Positions 4,004-30,278 of a stretch of 34,600 bases of DNA are shown here, one piece after another (positions within the stretch are counted from its first letter, which is position 1; each line of letters opens with the position of its first letter). This DNA is from a virus, in the IMG/VR virus record IMGVR_UViG_3300048927_000167, positions 1 through 34,600 of that record; one strand, written 5' to 3'. Position numbers and translations under genes: made by a program. The notes below the pieces were generated by a model. The model ran no database searches, was not told the DNA's origin, and saw only the letters and a program-made list of their open reading frames with translations.

Positions 4004-6902
4004 TATCCGCGTCGCGTTTGGCGCAATCGACCGATTTACCCGCCCTGTTAATGCCGCCCGCAAAAGCGCGAGCGGCCTAACCGAATCCCTCAAAAATACG
4101 CAGGCGGCTGCCTCGAAACTCAATGCGCAGGCGGACACATTCAACCGCCTGCGCAACAGCATTAATAAAACCTCGCAGCAGATTGATAAAACCCGCCGCA
4201 GCCTCAGTGGGCTGAATCAGGCGCAGCGTGATGGCACGGTTTTAACCGATGCACAACGCGAGCGCATGAGCGCACTGGCGGCAAAACTCGATCGCCTCAG
4301 CGCCGCACGCACCCGCGAAACGCAAAAACTGCGGACAGTATCGGATGCCCTGCGACAGCATGGCATCAACCTCGCTGGCGGCAACAGAACGATCGAAAGT
4401 GCTATCAGGCGCACCGAACAATATAACCAGATACTCGAACGTGAACGGCGTCAGCTGGCTGCCGTTACGCAGGCGCGCGCGCGTTATGACAGGCTGCAGA
4501 CGCTGTCAGGCAAATTGCGCGGTGCTGGCACCATGGCAATGGCCGGTGGCGCGGCTGCCGGTTATGCCGCCGGGCGGTTTCTCGCGCCGGCTGTAGGTTT
4601 TGGGGCTGAAATGTCGCGCGTACAGGCGCTGACGCGTCTCGATAAAAATGATGATCAGCTCAGCGCGCTCCGCCAGCAGGCTAAAAAATTAGGTGCTGAA
4701 ACCGCATTCACTACCACTGACGCCGCCAGCGGGCAGGCGTTTCTCGCAATGGCCGGGTTTACACCGCAGGCAATCCGCGCCGCGCTGCCGGGCGTGCTTA
4801 ATATGGCGCTGGCCGGCGGGATGGAGTTGGGCGAGAGTGCAGATATTGGCTCTAACGTTCTCTCGCAGTTTTCACTGCCTGCGGGCCAGATGGACCGCGT
4901 GAGCGACGTGCTGACGGCGGCATTTACCCGCACCAATACCGATTTACGCCAGCTCGGTGAAACGATGGTTTACGCCGGGCCGGTCATGTCAAAACTGGGT
5001 ATCGACGTCGAAAAAGCAGCAGCGATGGCGGGCATTCTCGCGAACAACGGCATGCGCGGCAGCATGGCCGGTACAGCGATGCGCGCCAGCCTGTCCCGCC
5101 TCGCATCACCGACCAAAAAAGCAAAAGCGGCGCTGGATGAGCTGGGCGTTTCTGTCGCGGACGCGTCAGGCAAAATGCGCCCGGTTGAGTTCATCCTGCT
5201 GGATCTGTTTAACGCGACTAAAAAATATGGCGAAACGGATCAGGTTTCGTTTTTCAAAGACATTGCCGGTGAAGAGGCATTTGTTGGGCTGCAAAGTCTG
5301 GCTCAGGGTGCCGGCAGCGGTGCGCTGCAGAAACTGATTGCAGAGCTGGGCAACGCCAAAGGCGAAGCCAACAAAGCCGCAAAGGTGATGGCTGACAACC
5401 TGAGTGGCGACCTCAAAGAACTGGACAGCGCGTGGGAAGGTTTGCGCATTGCTGTTGAAGAGACCGCTGACGGCGCGCTGCGGAAACTCTCGCAGGGGTT
5501 AACAGGCATTCTGAATGGCGTCACGGGGTGGGCGAATGCTAATCCGCAACTGACAAAAACGCTGCTGTTACTCACTGCCGGCATCATCGGGACAACGGTG
5601 GCTGTTGGCGGCCTGTCGCTGACGCTGGGCATTCTGGCTGGCCCGTTCGCAAAATTACAGCTCGGCTTGTCCATGCTGACAATGCGCGCATCCGGCGCGT
5701 CAAAAATCCTGGGCATATTCAATGGACCACTGGCACGGATCAGCGGCTGGGGCCGCGTATTCAGTACGGTGCTCGGCTCTGTTTCCGTCGGACTGCGCAG
5801 CATGACGACATTACTGCCAGCCATGCGTGCCGGTCTGCTGGGTGCATTTATGGCACCTGGTGCCGCGATAGGTTCGCTGATTCGTGGCATCGGCATGTTC
5901 GCGCTGCGCCTGTCCGGACTGCCAATGCTCTGGAGTGCTATCACAACCGGAGTCTCAATCCTCGGCGGTGCGCTTTCATTGCTGCTGAGTCCGATTGGTT
6001 TGCTGGCCGGGGCATTTGTGCTGGCTGGCGTCATGATCTGGAAATACTGGGAACCTATTAAGGCGTTTTTTAGCGGGTTCCTCAGTGGGCTTGTAAGCAG
6101 TATGGCGCCCGCGTTCGCGCCGTTTGTAACGCTGTTTGGTCAGATAGCAGACGGGATCGGCAGGGTGTGGAACTGGTTCACCCGGCTACTCAGTCCTGTG
6201 CAGACCTCGCAAACCAGCCTGGACAAATGCGCCGGTGCCGGGAGGCGTTTTGGTGAGGTGCTGGGCAGCGCACTGGCAACGCTCATGACGCCATTAACCT
6301 GGCTCGCGGATGCTGTGTCGTCTCTGCTGGAAAAACTCGGCATGGTGCCTGACGCGATTAATACCGCGAGTTCTCAGATGGATGCACTACTGAGTAAGGC
6401 AAATAACCTGCGGAACACCCTGCCCATGCAGGCCGCAACCGTGGTGCCAGATGCTAAACCCGCGCCGGCAATGTCGGGCACCATGCGGCGACTGAGCGCG
6501 ATCGAGGACAACACCAAACAGACTGCCGCAAATACCAAAAAAATCGGCCCGGGCGACATTGTGTTTAAAAACCTGCCGCCAGCTCTGGCCGTGCGCGGCC
6601 AGTGGCAGGAGTCGCGCATTGCACGATCGGCGGCTGGCTCGCCGCTGTCGATGCGACCGGCCGCGCCGGTAGTTTCATCGCCCGTCAGGCTGCCCGCATT
6701 GCCATCCCCTGCCGCTGCGGCCACATCAGCGCGGCAGGCAGCAGCGGTGCCCGCGGGCGCCCTGCCTCCTGTCGTTATAAACCTGCATGGCGTTGATCGT
6801 CAGGATGCGCAGGAGCTGGCAAAAATCGTTACACAGGCTGTCAGTGCGGAACTGGACAGGCGCGCACGGCGCGCACGTGGCAGTTATACAGATCGGGAAT
6901 GA
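3990..6902 (+). CDS. T: Tail tape measure protein gpT
   Basis: A 970-residue tape measure protein, which sets tail length and probably passes into the host membrane on injection. The N-terminal 150 residues are a charged, coiled-coil-like region rich in Ala, Arg and Gln. Around residues 185-215 a Gly/Ala-rich hydrophobic segment begins (AGTMAMAGGAAAGYAAGR), followed by the conserved phage tape measure domain (GAETAFTTTDAASGQAFLAMAGF). Several hydrophobic stretches follow between about residues 520 and 700. I chose ATG 3990 (MKTLDIRV) over the TTG at 3948 because it fits the family start and has AGGTG upstream. It is longer than P2 T (about 815). Confidence 0.94.
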   Translation: MKTLDIRVAFGAIDRFTRPVNAARKSASGLTESLKNTQAAASKLNAQADTFNRLRNSINKTSQQIDKTRRSLSGLNQAQRDGTVLTDAQRERMSALAAKLDRLSAARTRETQKLRTVSDALRQHGINLAGGNRTIESAIRRTEQYNQILERERRQLAAVTQARARYDRLQTLSGKLRGAGTMAMAGGAAAGYAAGRFLAPAVGFGAEMSRVQALTRLDKNDDQLSALRQQAKKLGAETAFTTTDAASGQAFLAMAGFTPQAIRAALPGVLNMALAGGMELGESADIGSNVLSQFSLPAGQMDRVSDVLTAAFTRTNTDLRQLGETMVYAGPVMSKLGIDVEKAAAMAGILANNGMRGSMAGTAMRASLSRLASPTKKAKAALDELGVSVADASGKMRPVEFILLDLFNATKKYGETDQVSFFKDIAGEEAFVGLQSLAQGAGSGALQKLIAELGNAKGEANKAAKVMADNLSGDLKELDSAWEGLRIAVEETADGALRKLSQGLTGILNGVTGWANANPQLTKTLLLLTAGIIGTTVAVGGLSLTLGILAGPFAKLQLGLSMLTMRASGASKILGIFNGPLARISGWGRVFSTVLGSVSVGLRSMTTLLPAMRAGLLGAFMAPGAAIGSLIRGIGMFALRLSGLPMLWSAITTGVSILGGALSLLLSPIGLLAGAFVLAGVMIWKYWEPIKAFFSGFLSGLVSSMAPAFAPFVTLFGQIADGIGRVWNWFTRLLSPVQTSQTSLDKCAGAGRRFGEVLGSALATLMTPLTWLADAVSSLLEKLGMVPDAINTASSQMDALLSKANNLRNTLPMQAATVVPDAKPAPAMSGTMRRLSAIEDNTKQTAANTKKIGPGDIVFKNLPPALAVRGQWQESRIARSAAGSPLSMRPAAPVVSSPVRLPALPSPAAAATSARQAAAVPAGALPPVVINLHGVDRQDAQELAKIVTQAVSAELDRRARRARGSYTDRE

Positions 6903-6912
6903 GGATTTAACT

Positions 6913-7404
6913 ATGATGATGGTTTACGGGCTGTTTGTTTTTGCACTCGATACACTGCCCTATCAGCAATTACAGCAATCACGCAGCTGGCGTTACGCCA
7001 AAAACGATCGCGTAGGGCGTTCTGCAAAATGGCAATACGTTGGCTCGGGTGACAATCAGATCACCCTCACAGGGACGCTGTACCCTGAAATTACGGGCGG
7101 CAACCTCTCGCTCGGCGCCGTGGCGACCATGGCGTACGCCGGATTGCCCTGGCCGCTGATCGATGGTATCGGTACTATTTACGGTATGTACGTGCTGACA
7201 AATCTGGGTGAGACGCGGCAGGAGTTCGATCAGTACGGCAACGCTAAAAAAATTGAGTTCTCAATCACGCTGCAGCGCGTTGATGAGGATGTGCGGGAAA
7301 AAATGCAGAGTGCATCAGCGTCGGATTTGCTGGACACACTGAAAAGCGGCGCCACGACTGCATTTAACAAAGCGTCGTCCGTTGCGGGCACTTTATTGTC
7401 ATAG
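6913..7404 (+). CDS. U: Tail protein gpU
   Basis: A 163-residue P2 gpU family baseplate/tail protein, a LysM-like or gp53-type tail component acting with gpX and gpD. The conserved start MMMVYGLFVFALDTLPYQ and the segments SWRYAKNDRVGR, PEITGG and IDGIGTIYGMYV match P2 U closely. ATG 6913 is preferred to the long upstream extension because MMMV is the family start and GAGGATTTAACT supplies a ribosome site. It ends the plus-strand tail block; a strong terminator follows. In P2, D comes next on the same strand; here D lies at the other end of the block. Confidence 0.94.
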   Translation: MMMVYGLFVFALDTLPYQQLQQSRSWRYAKNDRVGRSAKWQYVGSGDNQITLTGTLYPEITGGNLSLGAVATMAYAGLPWPLIDGIGTIYGMYVLTNLGETRQEFDQYGNAKKIEFSITLQRVDEDVREKMQSASASDLLDTLKSGATTAFNKASSVAGTLLS

Positions 7405-19760: not shown

Positions 19761-20813
19761 GTGAAAAAGAAAAAATTCAGCGGTGGAGCTGCCACTGCGC
19801 AAAATCAGGATCAGATAGCTGATGCACTGAAAAACGATGTAAAAATGTCGGCATTCACGTTTGATGGCCCCTACCCGGTCAGCAGCTCCCGCGACCTGCT
19901 CGATAACATGTATTGCGCTGATAATGGCCGATATTTTGAAACGCCTGTAAGTTTTTACGGGCTGGCGCGGTCTATGGGCCTTTCACCGTGGCATGAGTCT
20001 GCGTTGTATTTTAAACGCAACGTTTTAACCGGCTGTTTCATCCCGCATAAATTGCTCTCGCGTCAGGCGTTCTCTGCATTTGCGCTCGACTGGTTTGTAT
20101 TTGGCAATGGCTATCTCGAAATGCGCGGGAACCGTTTGGGCGGCCAAATGGGATTCCGGCACTCGCTGGCTAAATACACCCGGCGCGGCAGTGACCTGGA
20201 CAACTACTGGTTTGTTGAGCAGTGGCAGGCAGAGCACCAGTTTACCCCCGGCAGCGTTTGCCATGTGCTCAACCCCGATATTCATCAGGAGGTTTACGGG
20301 CTGCCGGAATACATGTCGGCCCTGCTCGCCGCCGCGCTCTCTCATGCTGCTGACTCATTCCGTAAACTCTATTACGACAACGGCTCGCACGCGGGCTGCA
20401 TCGTCTACGTAGGCGCAGGCCAGATCGATGAGAAAAGCATGGAGGCTGTAAAAAATACATTGACCGGCGCACGCGGGCGCGGGGCGTTCAAAAACCTGCT
20501 GCTGCACGCACCCGGCGGCGGCAAAGATGGTGTCCAGATTTTGCCGTTCAGCCAGATCACAGCGAAAGATGAGTTTGTGAATATCAAAGGGGTTTCCCGC
20601 GACGATATGCTGGCTGCTCACCGCGTACCACCGCAACTGATGGGCGCCATGCCGGACGGTAATGGATCATTCGGCGACATTGAAAAAGCAGCGCGGGTTT
20701 ATGCCATCAACGAACTGACCCCGACAATGGAGGCGCTGAAACATGTCAATGAATGGCTCGGCGAGGAGGTGATCCGGTTCAATTCCTATGCCCTGCTCGA
20801 CCAGACGAAATAG
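19761..20813 (+). CDS. Q: Portal protein gpQ
   Basis: A 350-residue portal protein of the P2 Q family. Typical stretches are FTFDGPYPVSSSRDLLDNM, WHESALYFKRNVLTG, FGNGYLEMRGNRLG and DMLAAHRVPPQLMG. It starts at a GTG that directly follows the P stop, within GGTAAGTG. Length agrees with P2 Q (344). It lies next to cos, as in P2. Confidence 0.95.
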   Translation: MKKKKFSGGAATAQNQDQIADALKNDVKMSAFTFDGPYPVSSSRDLLDNMYCADNGRYFETPVSFYGLARSMGLSPWHESALYFKRNVLTGCFIPHKLLSRQAFSAFALDWFVFGNGYLEMRGNRLGGQMGFRHSLAKYTRRGSDLDNYWFVEQWQAEHQFTPGSVCHVLNPDIHQEVYGLPEYMSALLAAALSHAADSFRKLYYDNGSHAGCIVYVGAGQIDEKSMEAVKNTLTGARGRGAFKNLLLHAPGGGKDGVQILPFSQITAKDEFVNIKGVSRDDMLAAHRVPPQLMGAMPDGNGSFGDIEKAARVYAINELTPTMEALKHVNEWLGEEVIRFNSYALLDQTK

Positions 20814-20840: not shown

Positions 20841-21026
20841 CATCCTCCAGCCATTCCGCGACAACATCTAATCAAACACCATTAAATCGCCTCAGCGCCA
20901 CGCTGCTCGCGTCAAAATTCTGACGCCGACGGATACCGGCACCACCCCGAAAACCCCGCACGATTGACCAAATCGCTCCCAAAACCCCGATCTGAGCTTA
21001 CCCCCCCCCTACGCCCCCCTTTGCGC

Positions 21027-21045
21027 GGGCTTTCCCCCCCGCACC
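21027..21045. other. cos: cos-like packaging site
   Basis: GGGCTTTCCCCCCCGCACC, read on the opposite strand, begins GGTGCGGGG and ends GAAAGCCC. It agrees at 15 of 19 positions with the P2 cohesive end GGCGAGGCGGGGAAAGCAC as I recall it. It lies about 210 bases beyond Q, which is the P2 position of cos, within an unusual C-rich, gene-free stretch. If correct, the linear virion genome begins here with Q and ends here with the OLD gene. Confidence 0.7.
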
Positions 21046-21560
21046 TGCGCGCAGCAAACGCTTCATTTTTTGTGCAACAGATAACCTTCTTCTACCAAGA
21101 TATGGCAAGAGCTGAGCGGGAGAAAATCTTTTAAAATAAATGTGCAATTTTGTGCTGTTCCTTGCTTAAACGGAACCCAACTTAAGACCAATGTTAAGGC
21201 CAGCTTCCAGCCTTACGTTGAAGAGATAAATATCCACATTATGCAAATTAAAGGATTTATATACTATGGAAGAAATCAGTAACATTAACTAATGCTTAAA
21301 ATGCGTTGCTTGGCCAAATGAAAAAGCAAATACAAAAGCAATGCTAACCTCTAATGACAATATGAAAAGTCATATTGCTGCCTTTATAATTCCAACTAAC
21401 CCATCTAGTTGTTTATTAATGTAAAATAAATTGTCAACAGCTAAGCCCCCAAAACCACCTACCAAAAATGACACTATTCACATAAAGATTTCTTAGGTTA
21501 TCTGAGGTAGCATGTGGCGAGGAGTCACTCACGCATAATCGAAAATGGATAGATTTTATT
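21046..21560. other. AT-rich spacer between cos and the OLD gene
   Basis: This stretch is strongly AT-rich, unlike the C-rich sequence before it, and contains no intact gene that I can support. It includes small imperfect inverted repeats (GTTCC/GGAAC at 21157-21176, TAAGGC/GCCTTA at 21195-21215) and the minus-strand gene remnant listed separately. It presumably carries the promoter of the OLD gene, which I cannot place. Confidence 0.5.
21289..21474 (-). pseudogene. Remnant of a small two-helix membrane protein
   Basis: From a GTG at 21474 the minus strand encodes 34 residues (MSFLVGGFGGLAVD..., ending VGIIKAAI), then TGA at 21370-21372, then in the same frame 26 more residues (LFILSLEVSIAFVFAFSFGQ...) to a TAG. 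Read through as Trp, the TGA would lie in a continuous hydrophobic helix. Two hydrophobic segments split by one stop codon suggest a decayed small membrane protein diverging from the OLD gene. The GTG start has no clear ribosome site. I do not recognise a family, and chance cannot be excluded in AT-rich DNA. Confidence 0.35.
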
Positions 21561-23411
21561 ATGAAAATTGCACAGCTAAAACTTACTAACTTCCGTAGTT
21601 ACAGAGATATAACAGTGGATTTTTCTGACGATTTCAACGTTGTTATTGGCAGGAACGATATAGGGAAATCCACGATACTTGAGGCTTTAGAAATTTTTTT
21701 CAACAATGAAATAATTAAAGTCGATATAAATGACTGTAATGTTTATTGTGAAGAAAAAAAGATGTCTATTCAAGTTTCCTTTATCCCAGACAAGCACTCT
21801 TATACAATTGATACAATACCTACAAATTTTAAAGATGAGTTTCTTTTAGACGACAAAGAATGGATTACCATAAAGAAATCATGGGACTGCTCTAAAGAGA
21901 AATTAAGCGCTGCATGTCTTAAAACAACAATGATATCTTATTATCCAATAAATTTCTCTACACCTCTGGTTAACCTTAAAATAACGGAATTAAGAAAAAT
22001 TTTAACTGATGATTATTCATCAGTACTCAATGTAGAAACCGTTAAGAAAAATACTAGCTCGCAAATTAGACAAGCTATCTACAATGCCACAGAAAATCTA
22101 ACTTTAGGCGTTACTGAGATAGATATAGACAAAGAAGATGGAAAGAAAATATGGGGTGCACTGCAAAGTGACTTGCCCTTATTTTTCTTATTCCAGTCCG
22201 ACAGAGAAAATAAAGACTCTGATAAAGAAGTTCAAAGCCCCTTAAGGACAATAACAAAGACGGCGATTGCCGAACTTGAAGATGAACTTGAGCGAGTTAA
22301 AGAAAAAATCGTAGCCAAAGCAATTCAAATTGGCAATGATACCATTGAAAAACTAAAAGAAATGAGTCCGGAAATTGCAAATGAACTCACCCCAGAAATG
22401 TCGAACAAGGCATGGGATACACTGTTTTCTTTCTCATTCAATTGCGATGATGGAATTCCCGTCAATAAAAGAGGAAGTGGCGTAAGACGGCTTATATTAT
22501 TAAATTATTTTCGTGCGGAAGCCGAAAGAAAAACTTTAGGTAACCGTAATGTTATCTATGCCATTGAGGAGCCAGAAACCTCACAACATCCTGAGTGGCA
22601 AGTTAAATTATTTCAAGCTCTTATGGACCTGCCCCAAAACCATAAAACTCAAGTTATTGTTACAACGCATAGCCCCTCTCTAGCTAGTCTGGCACCTATA
22701 GATAAGATTATATTTATCACAAAAGAAAACGGTTCAGTTTCTATTGAATGCAAGGAATCTGTCGATCTTGAAAAAGTTGTAACTACATTAGGTGTGCTTC
22801 CAGACATTCCAGCAGAAGTTAATAACCCCACACTAAAAGTTATATTATGCTTAGAAGGGCCAACAGACGTTGAATTTTTCGATAATGTAAGTACGGTGTT
22901 TGGAATTAATATTAATAATGACCCACGAATAATGTCAATATCATTAGGTGGCGGGACACTCAGGCACTGGGTTAATAAAAACTACTTGCGTAAATTAAAT
23001 CTCCCGGAAATACATATTTATGATAGAGATGTTAGTAAATATGCAGAAACCGTTCAAGAGGTTAACCTTAGAGCGAACTGCTGGGCTGCACAAACTTCAA
23101 TGTGGGAATTGGAAAATTATATTCATCCTAGCCTTTACTCCAGAGTCTATGCAACTCAAAACCCTTTCATTGACCTCACCTTAGACTGGAAAACATCGTG
23201 GTCCGATCGGGATATACCAACAGAACTATCAACATTCTTAAAAGCAGAAAAGCAGAATGGGAACCATTCAATTATGAATGAGGGTGCAAAAGCTATTAAG
23301 AATGTTTTTTCAAATAGCCTCTCAATACATATGAGTGAAGAGTTATTTAGAGACTTGAACGCATATGATGAAGTTAACGGTTGGTTTCAAAAGATTAAAT
23401 CACATTTTTAA
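21561..23411 (+). CDS. old: OLD-family ATPase/TOPRIM endonuclease
   Basis: A 616-residue overcoming-lysogenisation-defect nuclease, class 1 layout. N-terminal ABC-type ATPase: Walker A GRNDIGKST (30-38), signature-like RGSGVRRL (304-311), Walker B VIYAIEEPE (331-338), H-loop TTHSPS (His370). C-terminal TOPRIM: LEGPTDVEFF (Glu432, Asp436), IYDRD (Asp488, Asp490) and WELENY (515-520). All expected catalytic motifs seem present. P2 Old (586 residues) excludes lambda and kills recBC hosts; this protein lies in the same cos-proximal position and direction. No UvrD-like partner (GajB) follows, so it is not Gabija, and ATPase and TOPRIM are fused, unlike PARIS. Codon use is AT-rich compared with the phage. 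An anti-phage role is inferred. Confidence 0.92.
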   Translation: MKIAQLKLTNFRSYRDITVDFSDDFNVVIGRNDIGKSTILEALEIFFNNEIIKVDINDCNVYCEEKKMSIQVSFIPDKHSYTIDTIPTNFKDEFLLDDKEWITIKKSWDCSKEKLSAACLKTTMISYYPINFSTPLVNLKITELRKILTDDYSSVLNVETVKKNTSSQIRQAIYNATENLTLGVTEIDIDKEDGKKIWGALQSDLPLFFLFQSDRENKDSDKEVQSPLRTITKTAIAELEDELERVKEKIVAKAIQIGNDTIEKLKEMSPEIANELTPEMSNKAWDTLFSFSFNCDDGIPVNKRGSGVRRLILLNYFRAEAERKTLGNRNVIYAIEEPETSQHPEWQVKLFQALMDLPQNHKTQVIVTTHSPSLASLAPIDKIIFITKENGSVSIECKESVDLEKVVTTLGVLPDIPAEVNNPTLKVILCLEGPTDVEFFDNVSTVFGININNDPRIMSISLGGGTLRHWVNKNYLRKLNLPEIHIYDRDVSKYAETVQEVNLRANCWAAQTSMWELENYIHPSLYSRVYATQNPFIDLTLDWKTSWSDRDIPTELSTFLKAEKQNGNHSIMNEGAKAIKNVFSNSLSIHMSEELFRDLNAYDEVNGWFQKIKSHF

Positions 23412-23763
23412 AACTTACTCTTAGATGCTTTCATTCGAAAAAGCATTGGCGCACGCCACTTAATTAAATTAAATAAAAAGAGCTAACTAACTTAGCTCTT
23501 TTTACATTAAAATAAATTAAAAATCTGCCATTTTATTTATAAAGCAATGATTTATAAAGCTTTTATGTTAACAAATTATGTCGCCATTGGTTGAAAAAGT
23601 AAAATATCCATAAGTTAATTAGGCAATATTTTTCATTATATTAAATAACACGGCTAATTCAAAAAAAATATTTTCAGAGCAAACATGTATGATCCATTAC
23701 CTGAAGTTGGACTAGGATTTTAATTAACCTTAACTTTAATAATCAAAAAAATGGGTGTTATAA
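23412..23763. other. AT-rich intergenic spacer between OLD and KAP genes
   Basis: About 350 bases without a gene that I can support. It starts with a terminator (23476-23503) and then has very AT-rich DNA leading to the KAP gene start. The terminator indicates that the two accessory genes are separate transcription units. No promoter hexamers can be called with confidence. Confidence 0.5.
23476..23503 (+). terminator. Terminator after the OLD gene
   Basis: AAAAGAGCTA-ACTAACT-TAGCTCTTTTT forms a stem with a U tract on the plus strand and A-rich flank that would also serve the minus strand. It follows the OLD stop by about 65 bases. Confidence 0.85.
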
Positions 23764-25116
23764 ATGAGACTTACTGCATCTACAAACGATTTTTCAAAAG
23801 GTTTTAGCAATGAAGATGATATATTTGGAAGGAAAAAACTCTATCTGCAAATTATGAGAGTGCTAACAAATGCTGTGGATAAAAGCCTAGTGTTAGCCCT
23901 TGATGATAAATGGGGAAACGGCAAAACATCTTTTGTTAAAATGATGGAGTCAGAAATAAGAATAAATCACTCTAGAGATGCAGAGGTGATCTATTTTGAT
24001 GCTTTCAAGAGTGATTATCAGTCAGATCCATTTATAGCTTTAACCGCTAGCATATATGAAATGACGGAAAAAGATAATCAGCTAAAAAACTTAGGAGGTG
24101 AACTCCTAACAATTGGGAAAAAGCTAGGTGCTTCATTTATTATTAATGGATCAAAATTAGCTATTGGTGCCGTTACGGGGGGTTTAGTTTCTGGCACAAT
24201 GCTTGAAAAAACAGGTGATGCGATAAGCGAGTCCATAACATCTCCTCTTGAAAAATATATAGAAGAAAAAATAAAAAACAGCAAAGAAGAAACGTCAGCA
24301 ATAGAGAATTTTGGTGAAAAACTTACTGAAATACACGAGAAAAGTAAAAAGAAAATAATATTCATAATCGACGAACTTGATCGAGCACGCCCCGACTTTT
24401 CGTTGGATTTATTAGAAAAGATAAAACATATTTTCTCGGTAGAAGGTGTAATTTTTTTGCTTGTGGTTAATAGAGAACAGTTTGAAAAAAGCATAGAAAG
24501 CAGATATGGAAATATAAACTCAAAACTATACCTTAATAAATTTGTTCACTATTGGTTTACTTTACCCAAAGATAGTATCTTTTCAAGATCTAGCCAAGCT
24601 GGGATTAGCCAACCAACTATTAAGAAATACTTACACTCAATTGATGAAACCAATAGTTTTCATGGCAGAGGGGGAGTGATTATTAATATACTGTCTGGGC
24701 TATTAGAAACAAATAACTGCTCGCTAAGGGAAGCGGAGAGATGCTATTCAGTTATAAACATCATTGACCCGTCCATAACAAAAATTTATGCTACTGATTC
24801 TTATAAAGCTGCTACTGCACTTATTGCTTTTCTTAAGGTCCACAATTCAAAATTACTAACAGAAATAATATTTAAAAAACATGATGCTGATACAGTGATG
24901 AAGTCCTTAAATTTATTGGAAACTCCTTTGCTAGGTCATGCAGAGTTTTATTTGGTCAGATCCGTGTTGGACTACCACTATTCTACAGAAAGCCAACTTG
25001 ACGAACATCGCCAAAAAGGTAGTAAATATCGAGACATTGAAGGCATATTTGGCATAAAGGTGGACATAATGAACATTGTTTATTCGTCTGTAGAAGGATT
25101 TGAGGTTAATCTATAA
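23764..25116 (+). CDS. KAP-family P-loop NTPase
   Basis: A 450-residue KAP-type NTPase. Walker A is DKWGNGKTSF (Lys54, Thr55), followed by FDAFKSDYQSDPFIAL, which matches the KAP strand-2 region. Walker B is IIFIIDELDRARPD (Asp203, Glu204), close to the family DDLDRC. VVNREQFEKSI follows as sensor. An insert between Walker A and B holds a Gly/Ala-rich hydrophobic segment (residues about 121-146), in the place where many KAP proteins have membrane helices. The C-terminal 180 residues are unrecognised. GGGTG lies about seven bases before the ATG. KAP NTPases include the phage-exclusion protein PifA of plasmid F. The gene is AT-rich, in the P2 tin/old hotspot, and convergent with A. Function is inferred. 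Confidence 0.85.
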   Translation: MRLTASTNDFSKGFSNEDDIFGRKKLYLQIMRVLTNAVDKSLVLALDDKWGNGKTSFVKMMESEIRINHSRDAEVIYFDAFKSDYQSDPFIALTASIYEMTEKDNQLKNLGGELLTIGKKLGASFIINGSKLAIGAVTGGLVSGTMLEKTGDAISESITSPLEKYIEEKIKNSKEETSAIENFGEKLTEIHEKSKKKIIFIIDELDRARPDFSLDLLEKIKHIFSVEGVIFLLVVNREQFEKSIESRYGNINSKLYLNKFVHYWFTLPKDSIFSRSSQAGISQPTIKKYLHSIDETNSFHGRGGVIINILSGLLETNNCSLREAERCYSVINIIDPSITKIYATDSYKAATALIAFLKVHNSKLLTEIIFKKHDADTVMKSLNLLETPLLGHAEFYLVRSVLDYHYSTESQLDEHRQKGSKYRDIEGIFGIKVDIMNIVYSSVEGFEVNL

Positions 25117-25142
25117 TTAGCTAGCATAATATTGTCGTTATG

Positions 25143-25172
25143 ATGTGCAGTTTTTCAAACTGCACATTTTTC
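25143..25172. terminator. Terminator between KAP gene and A
   Basis: ATGTGCAGTTT-TTC-AAACTGCACAT followed by TTTTCT forms a strong stem. The minus strand also has A/T flanks. It lies three bases beyond the A stop codon, so it ends both the accessory transcript and the long early operon. Confidence 0.85.
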
Positions 25173-25174
25173 TC

Positions 25175-27628
25175 TTATAGCCACTCATCCAGCATCTCAT
25201 CACTGGCGCATTGGTAACAACCGGCGCCCGATGATGGATTTGCAGCAGTCAACTCGGAGCCGCAGCCGCACCAGCGGCGAACCTGCCTGATCTCCAACTC
25301 ATTGCCGTTCCGCAAAAGCGCCTCGCGATTATCATCGAGCCGGATGCGTGCGCCCGTAATCAGGGCCGGAGCGAGATCTGGCGTGTAGGCCATGCCCTGT
25401 GTAGCGCACAGGGTAATCACCGCAGCGGCTAAATCATCTGAAATTGGAGGGACGACCGGCGGCGCTGCTGGTAGATTTTGAGATTTTTTCTCATCCTGGC
25501 AGCTGCTGCGCATGACTCTGAGCGCGGCGCGGCGTTCCCGCGGTGTTAATGACGCTGGATCACGCAACTTTTCGGCGGGCAACTCTGTCGATAACTCTCG
25601 GGGATTGGTGTTTTTTTGGTCGCCCGTAGAGTTATTGACAGAACTCCAAGGGGCGGCGGGGCCGCCCTGAGTATCAAAAGATCCAGAACCAAAGGCGGTG
25701 CCGGATTTTGCTGGCTGCTTTTTGCGGATCGTCCAGGTTTTCAGGCGCGTGCATTGCCGCGATTCCTCGCCGATGTGCGGCGACCAGACGCCCGTGATTT
25801 TGCGCGTTGTCTCGCCGTAGGCGTTTGGCTCCTCGCTGTCCTCATAGGCAACGCGGACGGCATAGCGCTCGCGTGGAATAAGCACCCCGCCCTGTTTCTG
25901 GATATAGGTAGCAAAACAGCCCACGTCAGCAGCCGCCGCAATGGCATCCATAACCGGATCAGGCAGCAGTGATGCGCCGCGTTTGTATGTTCCAGCTTTG
26001 ATCATGATGCTGGTCAGCTGATTACTGAGTTTGCGCAGCTCACGGTAAACCGTGACCGGCGGCTGACCTACTGGCTGAAACTGGCGGATGCGATGCTGTG
26101 ATGCCCAGGCCATAGCGAGACGGGCCGTTTCGCGCAGCGGGCGGCCGGTTTCTTTGTCTGTTTCGCCGTCCAGCGCATAGCCGTCGATGTTTTTACTAAT
26201 ATATTTAGCCACATAGGCGGTCGCGCTGCCTTTTTTCGGGTCCATTTTTTTCGCTTTAAACCGCGCCGCTGTGTTTTTCCCCAGTTCCGCACGATCTTCG
26301 CGCGTGAAATAGTCGCGCAGGATCTCGAGTGCGGGTTTTACCTGGTCAGGCGGCAGGAAAATCAGAACATGCCAGTGCGGTGTGCTGTCGTGATGCGGTT
26401 CTGCGACGCGGAACCCGTAGGGGCGAAGATCGCTGCGTTTCAGTTTGGCGGTTGCCCTGCCCCAAACCCTGCACAGGTATTTTTGGGCAACTGACGGCGT
26501 TGCCCCATCCCATTTGGGGTTTGCGTGCCCGCTGTGGTTGTTGCTGTGATATCTGGAGGGGCAGGTAATTGTCAGGAATAGCCCGACGTCGCCGCGTGAC
26601 ATTGCCACCTGCTCGACACCCATCATGCGGGCCATCAACTCATGCCGGCGGATTGCTGGATTGCTCACGCTCGCCAGCGCCATCGCCTCTAATGAGGCAA
26701 CGTTTCCCTCGTCATCCTCCAGCTCATGACTGGCAATAAATTGCCGGTTTTTGCGGCGCTGCTCCTGCCATGCGGATAACGAGTCCTGACTGACGTAGGG
26801 ATTGCGGCGTTTGTGTATCTGACCGATCGCTCGCAACTGGCACTCGCGCCAGTCGTTACGCAACCGCCAGATCTGTCGCCCCCACCAATCAGCACTCATC
26901 AGCCTGCCCAGCGCGGACAAGCACAACAATTTATCAAACCGCTTGTTGAGCGATCGCCAAAACGGCGGGCGAATGCGCAGCGCCCTGACCTCGCGGCCCA
27001 GGTGCCGGTAGAGCCACAGTAGATCGTCGTCGCCGATCTCCTCCAATTGCGTGTTTAAAGCGCGGCACTCAGTGAAAAACATTTCACTAATCTGCGCGGC
27101 CAGAGCATTGCCCCATGTCAAAACCTGCCGGCGCGTCTGCTCTGCGAGATGTGACCAGCGCCGAGACCAGTACGCGCCCAGCTCGTTCGAGCTGCTGCGG
27201 ACTGCATGCGCCTGCCTCACTCGCTCCAGGCGCTGGACAGATTTCAGGATAGTGTTGCTGATAAACGCGTCGCGCTGTTCAGCTGGCTGGCGCTGACCAA
27301 TCCAGTCAATTTGATTGAGTAACGGCTGCCTCAGATACACCGGCAGCGTATTGAGGTGCGATTGAATGCCGCTGGCAGAGAGGTGCCACTCACTGCACGC
27401 TGTTTGCCATGCGTCACGCTCTTTGAGCGCCGCGCTACGCGCCAGGGCATTTACTGCAGCCTGCTGCCGTTCGTGGAACTCCTCAGCGGATATTGGGGAT
27501 TCCCCGCCGTGCGGATTGATTGCCGGGCGTGGTTTAATCCATGGGAAAAAACCGGGCGGCTGAGGTGTCGCGCCGGTAAATGGTGGTGGAGGTGATGGTG
27601 CGAAACGTCCGCGTTGCTCTCTACTCAT
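25175..27628 (-). CDS. A: Replication initiation endonuclease gpA
   Basis: An 817-residue HUH endonuclease that nicks its own gene and starts rolling-circle replication. The HUH motif is TPHWHVLIF (His418, His420). The catalytic pair is in TAYVAKYISKN (Tyr472 and Tyr476, spacing as P2 Tyr450/Tyr454). A C-terminal Cys cluster (RRWCGCGSE ... CYQCASD) looks like a zinc ribbon. The N-terminus is Pro-rich. It is longer than P2 A (761). The start overlaps the upstream methyltransferase stop by eight bases. The ori-like site lies at 25635-25655 within the gene, as in P2. Confidence 0.94.
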   Translation of the reverse strand: MSREQRGRFAPSPPPPFTGATPQPPGFFPWIKPRPAINPHGGESPISAEEFHERQQAAVNALARSAALKERDAWQTACSEWHLSASGIQSHLNTLPVYLRQPLLNQIDWIGQRQPAEQRDAFISNTILKSVQRLERVRQAHAVRSSSNELGAYWSRRWSHLAEQTRRQVLTWGNALAAQISEMFFTECRALNTQLEEIGDDDLLWLYRHLGREVRALRIRPPFWRSLNKRFDKLLCLSALGRLMSADWWGRQIWRLRNDWRECQLRAIGQIHKRRNPYVSQDSLSAWQEQRRKNRQFIASHELEDDEGNVASLEAMALASVSNPAIRRHELMARMMGVEQVAMSRGDVGLFLTITCPSRYHSNNHSGHANPKWDGATPSVAQKYLCRVWGRATAKLKRSDLRPYGFRVAEPHHDSTPHWHVLIFLPPDQVKPALEILRDYFTREDRAELGKNTAARFKAKKMDPKKGSATAYVAKYISKNIDGYALDGETDKETGRPLRETARLAMAWASQHRIRQFQPVGQPPVTVYRELRKLSNQLTSIMIKAGTYKRGASLLPDPVMDAIAAAADVGCFATYIQKQGGVLIPRERYAVRVAYEDSEEPNAYGETTRKITGVWSPHIGEESRQCTRLKTWTIRKKQPAKSGTAFGSGSFDTQGGPAAPWSSVNNSTGDQKNTNPRELSTELPAEKLRDPASLTPRERRAALRVMRSSCQDEKKSQNLPAAPPVVPPISDDLAAAVITLCATQGMAYTPDLAPALITGARIRLDDNREALLRNGNELEIRQVRRWCGCGSELTAANPSSGAGCYQCASDEMLDEWL
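25581..25655. other. ori: Replication origin (ori) inside gene A
   Basis: At 25635-25655 the minus strand carries CCTTGGAGTTCTGTCAA preceded by CGCC. It agrees at 18 of 21 positions with the P2 nicking region (CGCGCCTCGG-AGTCCTGTCAA, from memory). Part of it belongs to an 18-base inverted repeat: 25581-25598 and 25628-25645 are complementary at 16 of 18 positions, with a 29-base loop. The location inside A, toward its 3' end, fits P2 and 186. Nicking by gpA is inferred. Confidence 0.7.
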
Positions 27629-28472
27629 GCTTTACCGGCATGCGCTCACTAATGACAGGACTCAGCCAGATGCACTCCTGCCTCGTCTTGGTGCCCTTGC
27701 CTGCACTAATCCGTGAACTTTTAGTTTTCATCTGCCAGCCAGTCAGGAGATCCCTGTAGATTTCGCAGTCGTAGCCGCTAATCACTACCGCGCCACGCAT
27801 TAACGTTGCTGTTGCCAGCAACTCAACGTGATCGTCGTCGGTCATTTCGTGGTTATACTGACGGCGGCCAGCTGCGCGGGTTTCGCTGACATACGGCGGA
27901 TCGATATAGTGCAGGGTGTCGTCGCCATCATGGGCGCGCATTACCTCAAGCGCGTTTTTGTTTTCGATGATCACTCCCTGCAGCCGCTCACTGATTGCAG
28001 CCAGGTTTGCGGGAAATCTCGTCCACAGATGGGCGGCGGTGGCATACAGGCGTTTGCTATCACAGCGGAAACCAGAATGACTATCGAGTGCGGATGCAGA
28101 ACCAAAACCCATGCACGCCCTAACCACCATGCGGCGGGCGCGCTCAATGGGATCGGTTGCTGGCTGTTTCGCTAAATTGAACTCCTCGCGCGCATAGGCC
28201 GTCAGGCTGCATGCATCCTGCAAGCGCCGGCACATATCAGCATCACGCAACACACGAAACAGGTTTACAACCTCGCCGTCGAGATCGTTATAAACCTCTG
28301 CATAACTGCGCGGTTTCTGAATCAGTACGCCCGCCGCTCCTCCAAATGGTTCGACGTAACAGCGGTGATCGGGAAAATGACTGATGATCCAGGGCGCGAG
28401 CCGGAATTTTCCGCCGTGATAACGCATGACAGGATGCCGAATCTTTGGCTGCGTCATTGCAAGACTCTCCAT
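27621..28472 (-). CDS. Dam-type DNA adenine methyltransferase (second of pair)
   Basis: A 283-residue D12-class N6-adenine methyltransferase. Motifs in order: RYHGGKFRLAPWI (motif X), EPFGGAAGVLIQKPR (SAM-binding motif I), ENKNALEVM, and the catalytic HYIDPPYV. Probably methylates an adenine site in phage DNA. I chose the ATG at 28472, which overlaps the upstream stop as TGATG and has GAGGAGG upstream; an internal ATG at about residue 6 (MTQPKIRHP) is a reasonable alternative. It sits between another methyltransferase and A, with overlaps on both sides. The target site cannot be read from sequence. Confidence 0.88.
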   Translation of the reverse strand: MESLAMTQPKIRHPVMRYHGGKFRLAPWIISHFPDHRCYVEPFGGAAGVLIQKPRSYAEVYNDLDGEVVNLFRVLRDADMCRRLQDACSLTAYAREEFNLAKQPATDPIERARRMVVRACMGFGSASALDSHSGFRCDSKRLYATAAHLWTRFPANLAAISERLQGVIIENKNALEVMRAHDGDDTLHYIDPPYVSETRAAGRRQYNHEMTDDDHVELLATATLMRGAVVISGYDCEIYRDLLTGWQMKTKSSRISAGKGTKTRQECIWLSPVISERMPVKHE

Positions 28473-29431
28473 CACAGTGCCTCCTCTAAATCGTCAAATG
28501 CACCTGACTCACACATCGCCGCATACGTCGCATCACCGCAGCACGGACCGCAATCCGGGCACATGCCACCGCCTGCACTGTTGCAGCCCTCGCAGATTTT
28601 CAGGCAACCGATCACCTCGTTGGCCTCAGTGCGGGTTTGCGCGCCCACTGAGCGTCGTGCGGTGATTTCATGCATGCGGAACGGGGAATAAATGCGGCGG
28701 GTTTCGGGTGTGTCGCTGCCGGAAAATACCGACGTTGCGCCATGCTCGTTGAATGCATGAACCAGCGTTTTCACCAGGGTTTCGTGTTGATCTGCTCCAA
28801 ATCCGGCAGTGTGATAACTGGCAAAATTCGCGGTGTCGCTGGCGGGCAGGTATGGCGGATCACAGTAGAAAATCGCGCTCTGTTTGGCATGGGTGATGAT
28901 GGTTGTGCGGAAATCAGCACACATAAAAATTGTGCGCGTGTCCCGCGCTTTTTCAGCAAACAGGCGGATCTCACGTTCCGGGAAATACGGCGCTTTATAG
29001 CGACCATAGGGCACGTTGAATTTGCCCTGCTGGTTGTACCGCATCATGCCGTTATAGCCGTGCCGGTTGAGATAGAGAAAACGCAGCGCCTGCGTAAAAT
29101 CCCACGTTGAAAGCGCCCACGCAGCCGGGCGTGGATCATTGAACATGCTGCGGGTTGAGTAATACGTTTCCTCATTGTTGCCATCGCGGAACAGAGCTGA
29201 TCGCGCTGTGCTGATAAAATTCTCTGTGTCACTGGCAATCACGCGATAAAAATTAATCAGATGCGGGTTGATATCGCCGAGCACATAACGCCTGTAATCC
29301 GTATTCATAAACACGGACGCCCCGCCCACAAACGGCTCAATCAGGCAGTCGCCTTTTGGCAGATGAGGCAGCAATTTCGGCATGACGCGTGATTTACCGC
29401 CCGGCCATTTCAGAGGCAGTGTTGTTGTCAT
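28472..29431 (-). CDS. dam: Dam-type methyltransferase with Cys-rich tail
   Basis: A 319-residue D12-class adenine methyltransferase. Motifs: LKWPGGKSRVMPKLL (motif X), EPFVGGASVFMN (motif I), YLNRHGYNGMMRYN, and IFYCDPPYLP (catalytic DPPY). LNRHGYNG with F-N-V-P-Y-G-x-Y is characteristic of Dam enzymes, so GATC is the likely target. The last 50 residues add a cysteine cluster (ICEGC ... MCPDCGPCCGD) that looks like a small zinc-binding module, which standard Dam lacks. The start overlaps the upstream gene by four bases (ATGA). Confidence 0.88.
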   Translation of the reverse strand: MTTTLPLKWPGGKSRVMPKLLPHLPKGDCLIEPFVGGASVFMNTDYRRYVLGDINPHLINFYRVIASDTENFISTARSALFRDGNNEETYYSTRSMFNDPRPAAWALSTWDFTQALRFLYLNRHGYNGMMRYNQQGKFNVPYGRYKAPYFPEREIRLFAEKARDTRTIFMCADFRTTIITHAKQSAIFYCDPPYLPASDTANFASYHTAGFGADQHETLVKTLVHAFNEHGATSVFSGSDTPETRRIYSPFRMHEITARRSVGAQTRTEANEVIGCLKICEGCNSAGGGMCPDCGPCCGDATYAAMCESGAFDDLEEAL

Positions 29432-29655
29432 TGGATGGATTCCCCGTTGTAGGTTTCATGCGTCATGAGCTGCCAGTGCTGGCCGCCGTTTTTGCTGAGC
29501 AGCCGCCAGCGAATGCCAACCCGGATCACCAGATAGCCGTGCGGTTTTATGCGGGTAAAATTGTGCTCGCCGCGCTCGTACTGGCGGAGCAGGCGCAATG
29601 CACGCGCCTGAACCCGCAGCGCGACACGTTTGCAGGTCATCGTGACGGGCATCAT
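29428..29655 (-). CDS. Small basic early protein, unknown
   Basis: A 75-residue Arg-rich protein (MMPVTMTCKRVALRVQARAL...). No family recognised. It overlaps the preceding gene's stop and the dam start by four bases each, so it is very likely translated as part of the early operon. The pattern KPHGYLVIRVGIRWRLLSKNGGQHWQLMTH suggests a small beta-rich fold, and the charge would allow nucleic-acid binding; both are guesses from composition. Confidence 0.7.
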   Translation of the reverse strand: MMPVTMTCKRVALRVQARALRLLRQYERGEHNFTRIKPHGYLVIRVGIRWRLLSKNGGQHWQLMTHETYNGESIQ

Positions 29656-30278
29656 GAGCGCTCCATAATGGCGAGGTGATCAGGCACTGAACGGAGATAT
29701 GCCGCGTTCATGGCCGACAGTGCGCGCCAGGCAGATGTGATCAATTGAGATTGATGCAGGGCATCATTGAGCAGGTTTTGTGATGTTCTGTCGCATATAG
29801 TGATGCAACCGCCATGGACTACAACCGGGATAAATTCGATCAGCGTGCTGACGTGATGCGCGTGTGCGTATTGCCAGGCCGGCGCAATACCAGCGGCGGC
29901 CATTGCGCTATAAATGATCGGGGCGTCGATATCGAGGTTTTTAAACCACACGGGGCAACTACCAAACTCACCCTGACGCAGAACAAACAGGTTTACTTTT
30001 GTCAGCGCCTCGCGCAGCTCCAGAGAAACATCAGACAGCAACTCTGAGCGCGATTCAGCTGACTGGCGCAACCAATATTTAAACGCGCTGGCATCAATGG
30101 TTCCGCCCTCGCGCTGACTACTCTCAATATCAACAGAGCAGTACATTTGGTCTGCTATAGCACCCGTCTCCGGGTTAAATGCCACCGCTGCAATTGCGGC
30201 AATTGCGGCAATTGCGGCGCTAGGGCGCGCATCCAATGCCGTTACCCGGATCATGATGTGATTACGCTGATTAATCAT
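29652..30278 (-). CDS. Degraded 3'-5' exonuclease-like protein
   Basis: A 208-residue protein resembling the Rv2179c-like/exonuclease VIII-type 3'-5' exonucleases of phages: RPSAAI, FNPETGAIADQMYCSVDIESS, GGTIDASAFKYWLRQS, and VWFKNLDIDAPIIYSAMAAAGI line up with the family. The first catalytic motif, normally D-x-E at the start (IDLET-type), reads IRVTA here, so the metal-binding Asp and Glu are absent. The Asp of the second motif is retained in LDIDAP. A run AAIAAIAAIAA is encoded by a 9-bp tandem repeat. ATG 30278 has AGGA seven bases upstream. Probably a structural or regulatory relic rather than an active nuclease. Confidence 0.7.
   Translation of the reverse strand: MINQRNHIMIRVTALDARPSAAIAAIAAIAAVAFNPETGAIADQMYCSVDIESSQREGGTIDASAFKYWLRQSAESRSELLSDVSLELREALTKVNLFVLRQGEFGSCPVWFKNLDIDAPIIYSAMAAAGIAPAWQYAHAHHVSTLIEFIPVVVHGGCITICDRTSQNLLNDALHQSQLITSAWRALSAMNAAYLRSVPDHLAIMERS
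30191..30217. repeat. 9-bp tandem repeat, three copies
   Basis: CAATTGCGG is repeated three times without mismatch inside the exonuclease-like gene, giving an Ala-Ala-Ile repeat. Being a multiple of three, copy-number change by slippage would keep the frame. The protein appears about three residues longer here than the family pattern, equal to one repeat unit. Confidence 0.9.

Follow-up and report, generated by a model that had tools for sequence, protein, structure and literature searches.

Between its cos site and its replication gene A, the P2-like prophage in virus record IMGVR_UViG_3300048927_000167 (34,600 bases, analyzed at full length and hereafter called the window; identified as P2-like by its gene content) carries a block of cargo of the already published P2 old/tin defense hotspot, whose layout and orientation it shares. 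Two intact open reading frames (ORFs) lie in this block: the first encodes a protein of the OLD family, with an ABC-ATPase and a predicted TOPRIM nuclease domain, and the second a KAP-family P-loop NTPase. These genes are probably two independent single-gene anti-phage modules which were acquired separately. An anti-phage role for OLD and KAP is suggested by their families, by their location and by the neighbors of their relatives. Coordinates are collected in Table 1.

Cargo of the P2 hotspot between cos and gene A

A preliminary description of this DNA had placed two AT-rich genes at the position of tin and old in P2, and this placement was confirmed. The G+C content of the block is ~35% versus ~56% in the phage, with values of 0.31-0.38 between ~21100 and ~25150, and its gene neighbors are a P2-type terminase, portal and gpA (Pfam). 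The start of the locus had been put at 21046, just after cos, which agrees with our finding that the top match to P2 cos anywhere in the window, on either strand, ends at 21045. The DNA containing this site (~21000-21077) is conserved in five other loci, L010 and L011 among them. L010, the nearest relative, is 97.5% identical to the window up to 21077 and 93% identical from 25173 on, and nucleotide similarity to L011 ends at 21091 and returns at 25179. Since similarity breaks at both borders, the closest relatives have other DNA in place of the whole block, with genes for proteins of 740 and 379 amino acids at the same place in L010 and of 172 and 314 amino acids in L011.

This exchange of cargo was not confined to those two relatives. 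Loci were surveyed with the portal or the KAP gene as anchor; their cargo proteins of at least 180 amino acids formed 51 clusters, and there were many matches to PADLOC models. The window therefore shows what defines the P2 cos-A defense hotspot, namely variable cargo between portal gene Q with cos and gene A. P2 carries old and tin at the equivalent place, oriented as in the window and likewise pointing toward A; as had been proposed, both window genes have the orientation opposite to that of gpA, toward which they converge. The site is a recognized hotspot in E. coli, with 1,650 arrangements in 18,150 occurrences (Rousset et al., 2022; PMC9122126); individual P2-like hotspots frequently carry two or more systems (PMC9122126), and four of the systems of Vassallo et al. 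(2022; PMC9519451) were located at the P2 hotspot. Megablast of the cargo block against complete E. coli genomes gave no match, and thus no close E. coli copies.

As a separate observation from the surveyed cargo, three loci carry an AAA ATPase-like protein (457-524 amino acids) beside a protein of 237-241 amino acids; these may be PARIS-type pairs.

The first gene encodes a stand-alone OLD protein

The N-terminal part of the first protein matched Pfam AAA_15 (E 5.5e-74). No Pfam or PADLOC model matched its last 241 residues taken alone, and therefore relatives were gathered and a family profile was used. The relatives comprised plasmid-borne homologues, 80 loci in bacterial and archaeal genomes (35-71% identical) and 17 viral loci, with the closest (71% identical) coming from Gilliamella; the profile and alignment were made from 57 sequences. 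This profile matched the Thermus OLD protein 6p74 (E 1.9e-22) and GajA (4e-17), spanning the ATPase and extending into the TOPRIM domain. Walker A, signature, Walker B and H-loop elements were all found in the ATPase, where K36 (Walker A), S306/G307, E336/E337 and H370 are invariant among the 57 relatives.

In the C-terminal half, E432, D436, D488, D490, T512, E518 and K580 are invariant in 57/57 sequences, and E516 is present in 55. In the Thermus OLD (TsOLD), metal A is assigned to E377, D431 and D433 and metal B to D381, S478 and E480 (PMC7049728); residues E432, D436, D488, D490, E516 and E518 of the window protein fit these positions by motif and spacing rather than by superposition, and at the position of TsOLD S478 it has E, not S or T. 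The OLD-like_TOPRIM model matched 11 of the 57 relatives, not the window protein itself, and profile-profile alignment of this model with the OLD family gave 96.1% probability. The closest full-length folds to an AlphaFold model of the protein (pLDDT 84, pTM 0.59) were GajA and 6p74, with modest global TM-scores of 0.35-0.42. Taken together, the family profile, the invariant residues and the predicted fold indicate a TOPRIM domain, in agreement with the earlier naming of this gene as an OLD-family ATPase/TOPRIM nuclease.

The gene stands alone, without a partner helicase or retron, its window neighbors being cos and KAP, which is the arrangement of class 1 OLD proteins. K580, in contrast, sits in the C-terminal helical part and by motif resembles K562 of the class 2 protein BpOLD. 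By its sequence, then, the window protein belongs to the OLD family, as a single-gene member whose C-terminus is class 2-like. It was also considered as an ortholog of P2 Old, a reading that we rejected at just 28% identity over 99 amino acids.

The class 2 features raise the alternative that the first gene is an orphan Gabija, i.e., a GajA which has lost its GajB helicase. GajA is the top fold match of the model, and a C-terminal helical part with a lysine conserved in all relatives is a feature of class 2. None of the ten downstream partners of OLD relatives examined, however, is a UvrD-type helicase; these partners are methylases, restriction proteins, nSTAND3 and HD-CE proteins, and in the window the next gene is KAP. 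Because the family is mostly solo or accompanied by partners other than GajB, there is no indication that this lineage lost GajB, and we regard an orphan Gabija as quite unlikely.

The top PADLOC match of the protein, AriA, prompted the further alternative of a fused single-gene PARIS, in which AriA would be joined to an AriB/DUF4435 TOPRIM and would cleave tRNA on sensing anti-restriction proteins. The location of OLD relatives near restriction genes is in keeping with this, as is a weak profile-profile match to DUF4435 (58.7% probability over 91 columns, from a small DUF4435 set). The AriA model, however, equals the generic Pfam AAA_15 in length and matching behavior, and the fused AriAB model reached significance in just two short stretches of the ATPase, with one additional insignificant piece, and gave matches in all 14 control genomes as well. 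Furthermore, DUF4435 matched neither the window nor any of the 57 relatives, whereas the OLD-like TOPRIM model did find matches among them. These results place the protein in the OLD family rather than in PARIS, which is very unlikely as an explanation of this gene.

Neighbors of OLD relatives included, in raw counts, N6/N4 DNA methylases (7), nSTAND3 proteins (4) and Shedu (2); HpaII-type and type I restriction genes were found as well, together with LlaMI and Dcm in Psychrobacter. Such restriction-rich surroundings support a role in defense, and they hint at a link between OLD and restriction in some branches of the family, not in the window.

In eight loci, the gene directly downstream of the OLD relative encodes an N6/N4 methylase or an nSTAND3 NTPase. 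The methylases follow at 4-30 bp and the nSTAND3 NTPases within ~50 bp, which look like recurrent two-gene arrangements; one of these loci, L186, belongs to a phage and has a P2-type gpA close by.

The second gene encodes a soluble KAP NTPase

The preliminary description of the second gene as a KAP-type NTPase was borne out by Pfam (KAP_NTPase, E 9e-40, with 137 bits where the cut-off is 20). In PADLOC the protein matched PDC-S20 (E 1.6e-72) and, more weakly, PifA (1.3e-17) and QatA (2.5e-13), and it matched phrog_8614 at E 2.7e-117. Across the 8 aligned sequences there is no variation in the Walker A (GNGKT) or Walker B (IIDELDRA) region. No segment of the protein reached transmembrane grade; the top 19-residue hydropathy (1.48, residues 217-235) falls in the P-loop domain, and the two transmembrane segments that accompany the KAP NTPase of Tmn are thus not predicted here. 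A structure model of medium confidence (pLDDT 68, from 8 sequences) gave weak Foldseek matches (TM ~0.3) to RdrA of RADAR and to ORC/Cdc6, which we take as a weak sign of an AAA+/STAND-like fold. There was also a weak REase_II match at the C-terminus (E 0.003). The name PDC-S20 was not found in the literature searched.

PDC-S20-like KAP genes were found at the cos-A site of several P2-like backbones (L004-L009, L039, L194, L247, L248 and L250), usually as the large gene nearest to portal and cos. About 10 of the 17 viral KAP loci occupy the cos-A site or adjoin gpA, with portals 29%, 52%, 56% and 72% identical to that of the window, and no upstream DNA shared between the window KAP and the other KAP loci was found. 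A further KAP relative, in Salmonella houtenae (5968-7290 of locus L265), adjoins primase-helicase genes and may be part of a satellite-like element.

Pairing of OLD and KAP is not supported

The preliminary description had presented OLD and KAP as a pairing and named their co-occurrence beforehand as the check. Despite wide sampling of each family, no other locus carries both. OLD was absent from all 17 viral loci encoding a KAP relative, and KAP from all 95 OLD loci within the flanks retrieved (at most 7 kb per side, with some contigs shorter). Among the same 395 Enterobacterales genomes, 15 carried KAP, 7 carried OLD and none carried both, with 0.27 expected by chance, so that co-occurrence was no higher than chance. 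The 395-genome comparison alone has little power, and the argument is therefore carried by the neighborhood data.

The layout of the DNA gives the same indication. Similarity between the window OLD and its Gilliamella homologue is confined to the ORF, from 17 bp before the ATG to 6 bp past the stop. The earlier proposal that each gene has its own terminator agrees with two terminator-like hairpins, one inside the 352 bp gap between OLD and KAP (-13.8 kcal/mol, z -6.6) and one after KAP (-14.5 kcal/mol, z -5.3). Lack of co-occurrence, ORF-limited similarity and the hairpin in the gap together indicate two modules.

It might be argued that OLD and KAP are nevertheless one two-component defense system with KAP as sensor or regulator and OLD as nuclease, as the two are adjacent, on the same strand and in one block which differs wholesale from L010 and L011, and OLD-type ATPases elsewhere do have partners (GajB, or the nSTAND3 proteins and methylases beside relatives). 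The counts given above, the bidirectional hairpin in the gap and the repeated presence of KAP at the cos-A site without a window-type OLD all speak against this, and we rejected the single system on co-occurrence among the sampled loci; it is highly improbable. We assign similarly little probability to a new two-gene system in which this OLD lineage (~600 amino acids, with a Gabija-like C-terminal lysine and solo or with exchangeable partners) would be a separate OLD class with KAP as its partner here.

Phage backbone

In the backbone, genes for integrase, repressor-type HTH protein, gpA, terminase, portal, tail-fiber and lysozyme were found. The terminase is only ~75% identical to the best-matching deposited phages. 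On the replication side, two tandem genes for D12-class adenine DNA methyltransferases (27621-29431, minus strand) lie immediately upstream of gpA in the replication operon, and the early operon contains a gene with an Rv2179c-like 3'-5' exoribonuclease domain (29652-30278, minus strand).

Table 1. Features of the window at and around the cos-A cargo block.
Feature	Coordinates	Strand	Basis
Portal gene (P2 Q), left neighbor of cos	19761..20813	+	Pfam Phage_portal, E 6e-14
cos site, left border of hotspot	21027..21045	-	15/19 match to P2 cos
Exchangeable cargo block of P2 hotspot	21078..25172		Similarity to L010 breaks at both ends; low G+C
Predicted OLD-family ABC-ATPase/TOPRIM nuclease, 616 aa, stand-alone type	21561..23411	+	AAA_15, family profile, conserved residues, predicted fold
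Bidirectional terminator-like hairpin between OLD and KAP	23474..23504		13 bp stem, 5 nt loop, A5/T5 flanks; perfect inverted repeat I5
KAP-family P-loop NTPase, 450 aa, soluble, PDC-S20-like	23764..25116	+	Pfam, PADLOC, phrog, Walker motifs
Terminator-like hairpin after KAP gene	25142..25168	+	12 bp stem, T-rich tail
P2 gpA-type replication initiator, right border of hotspot	25175..27628	-	Pfam Phage_GPA, E 1e-102

Possible function

If the two genes are anti-phage modules, each may be expressed in the lysogen and act by itself. OLD would form a dimer or higher assembly in which the ATPase gates the TOPRIM domain, and its SMC/Rad50-like ABC ATPase domain may sense the state of infection. For P2 Old and Gabija, loss of RecBCD, or its exclusion from DNA ends, is reported to license attack (PMC12407980); by analogy, the trigger of the window OLD may be DNA ends from which RecBCD has been excluded or lost. 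The sensed state would then license the predicted two-metal TOPRIM nuclease to cut nucleic acid, its presumed target. The soluble KAP, like PifA, QatA and Tmn, probably works as a sensor or switch which is driven by NTP and leads to abortive infection, an analogy based on PifA (PMC8594841).

Several observations weigh against two defense modules of these families. The TOPRIM half of OLD alone remained below thresholds, with no Pfam, PADLOC or TOPRIM hidden Markov model match, and a PDB sequence search with this part alone gave zero matches. PDC-S20, the PADLOC match of KAP, is a candidate class only, and a sigma-70 promoter scan found no KAP promoter above chance (17 sites vs 15.7 in shuffles). 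Additionally, some genes at the site are non-defense genes, such as partition genes (Rousset et al., 2022; PMC9122126). This last point bears on the alternative that OLD and KAP are non-defense lysogenic-conversion cargo serving, for example, prophage maintenance or host fitness; the hotspot holds partition genes and other functions (PMC9122126), and one archaeal OLD is reported to act in the cell cycle (PMC12796447). Both families, however, occur in defense-rich groups and OLD relatives cluster with restriction genes, and we consider non-defense cargo unlikely.

On our preferred reading of two separate anti-phage modules, the window adds two candidate defense genes to a hotspot which has already yielded working systems. 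Because the KAP family repeatedly lands at cos-A on different P2 backbones, the PDC-S20-like KAP is a better target for testing than the pair. A 2023 review raised as an open question whether a single OLD protein suffices for broad defense (PMC10568477), and an OLD protein which stands alone and retains every catalytic position would be useful in answering it.

Comparison with known systems

The closest parallel in arrangement is P2 old-tin, with which the window shares site, order from cos and orientation, as an OLD protein beside cos is followed by a second exclusion gene in P2 and by KAP in the window. The window OLD, however, belongs to a distant lineage, the KAP in Tin's place is unrelated to Tin, and the P2 pair is on one mRNA whereas the window has a terminator-like hairpin between its genes. 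Thermus scotoductus OLD (class 1, PDB 6P74) is likewise a stand-alone ABC ATPase with TOPRIM and has the same metal A and B positions, but identity in fold alignments is 15-16%, and the C-terminal helical part of the window OLD, with its invariant lysine, is longer. Gabija GajA, a class 2 OLD, is the best whole-length fold match and has a C-terminal lysine of the class 2 catalytic kind, while the window OLD has no adjoining GajB helicase. PARIS (AriAB), known from P4 satellites, also combines an AAA_15-type ATPase with a TOPRIM nuclease; the TOPRIM of the window OLD is not detectably DUF4435. IbfA and HEC-04 are single-gene ATPase-TOPRIM proteins with reported phage interference (PMC12111858), which we set beside the window OLD by their description; IbfA is shorter (518 vs 616 amino acids).

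The window KAP shares the KAP P-loop NTPase with PDC-S20 (a PADLOC candidate class), PifA, QatA and Tmn. The models of PifA and QatA, at 593-720 positions, exceed it in length (450 amino acids), and Tmn has two transmembrane segments (PMC11846954) whereas none are predicted in the window KAP. What is new here is the cargo itself, OLD and KAP in a known hotspot; it adds an instance to an arrangement already known and does not amount to a new two-part system.

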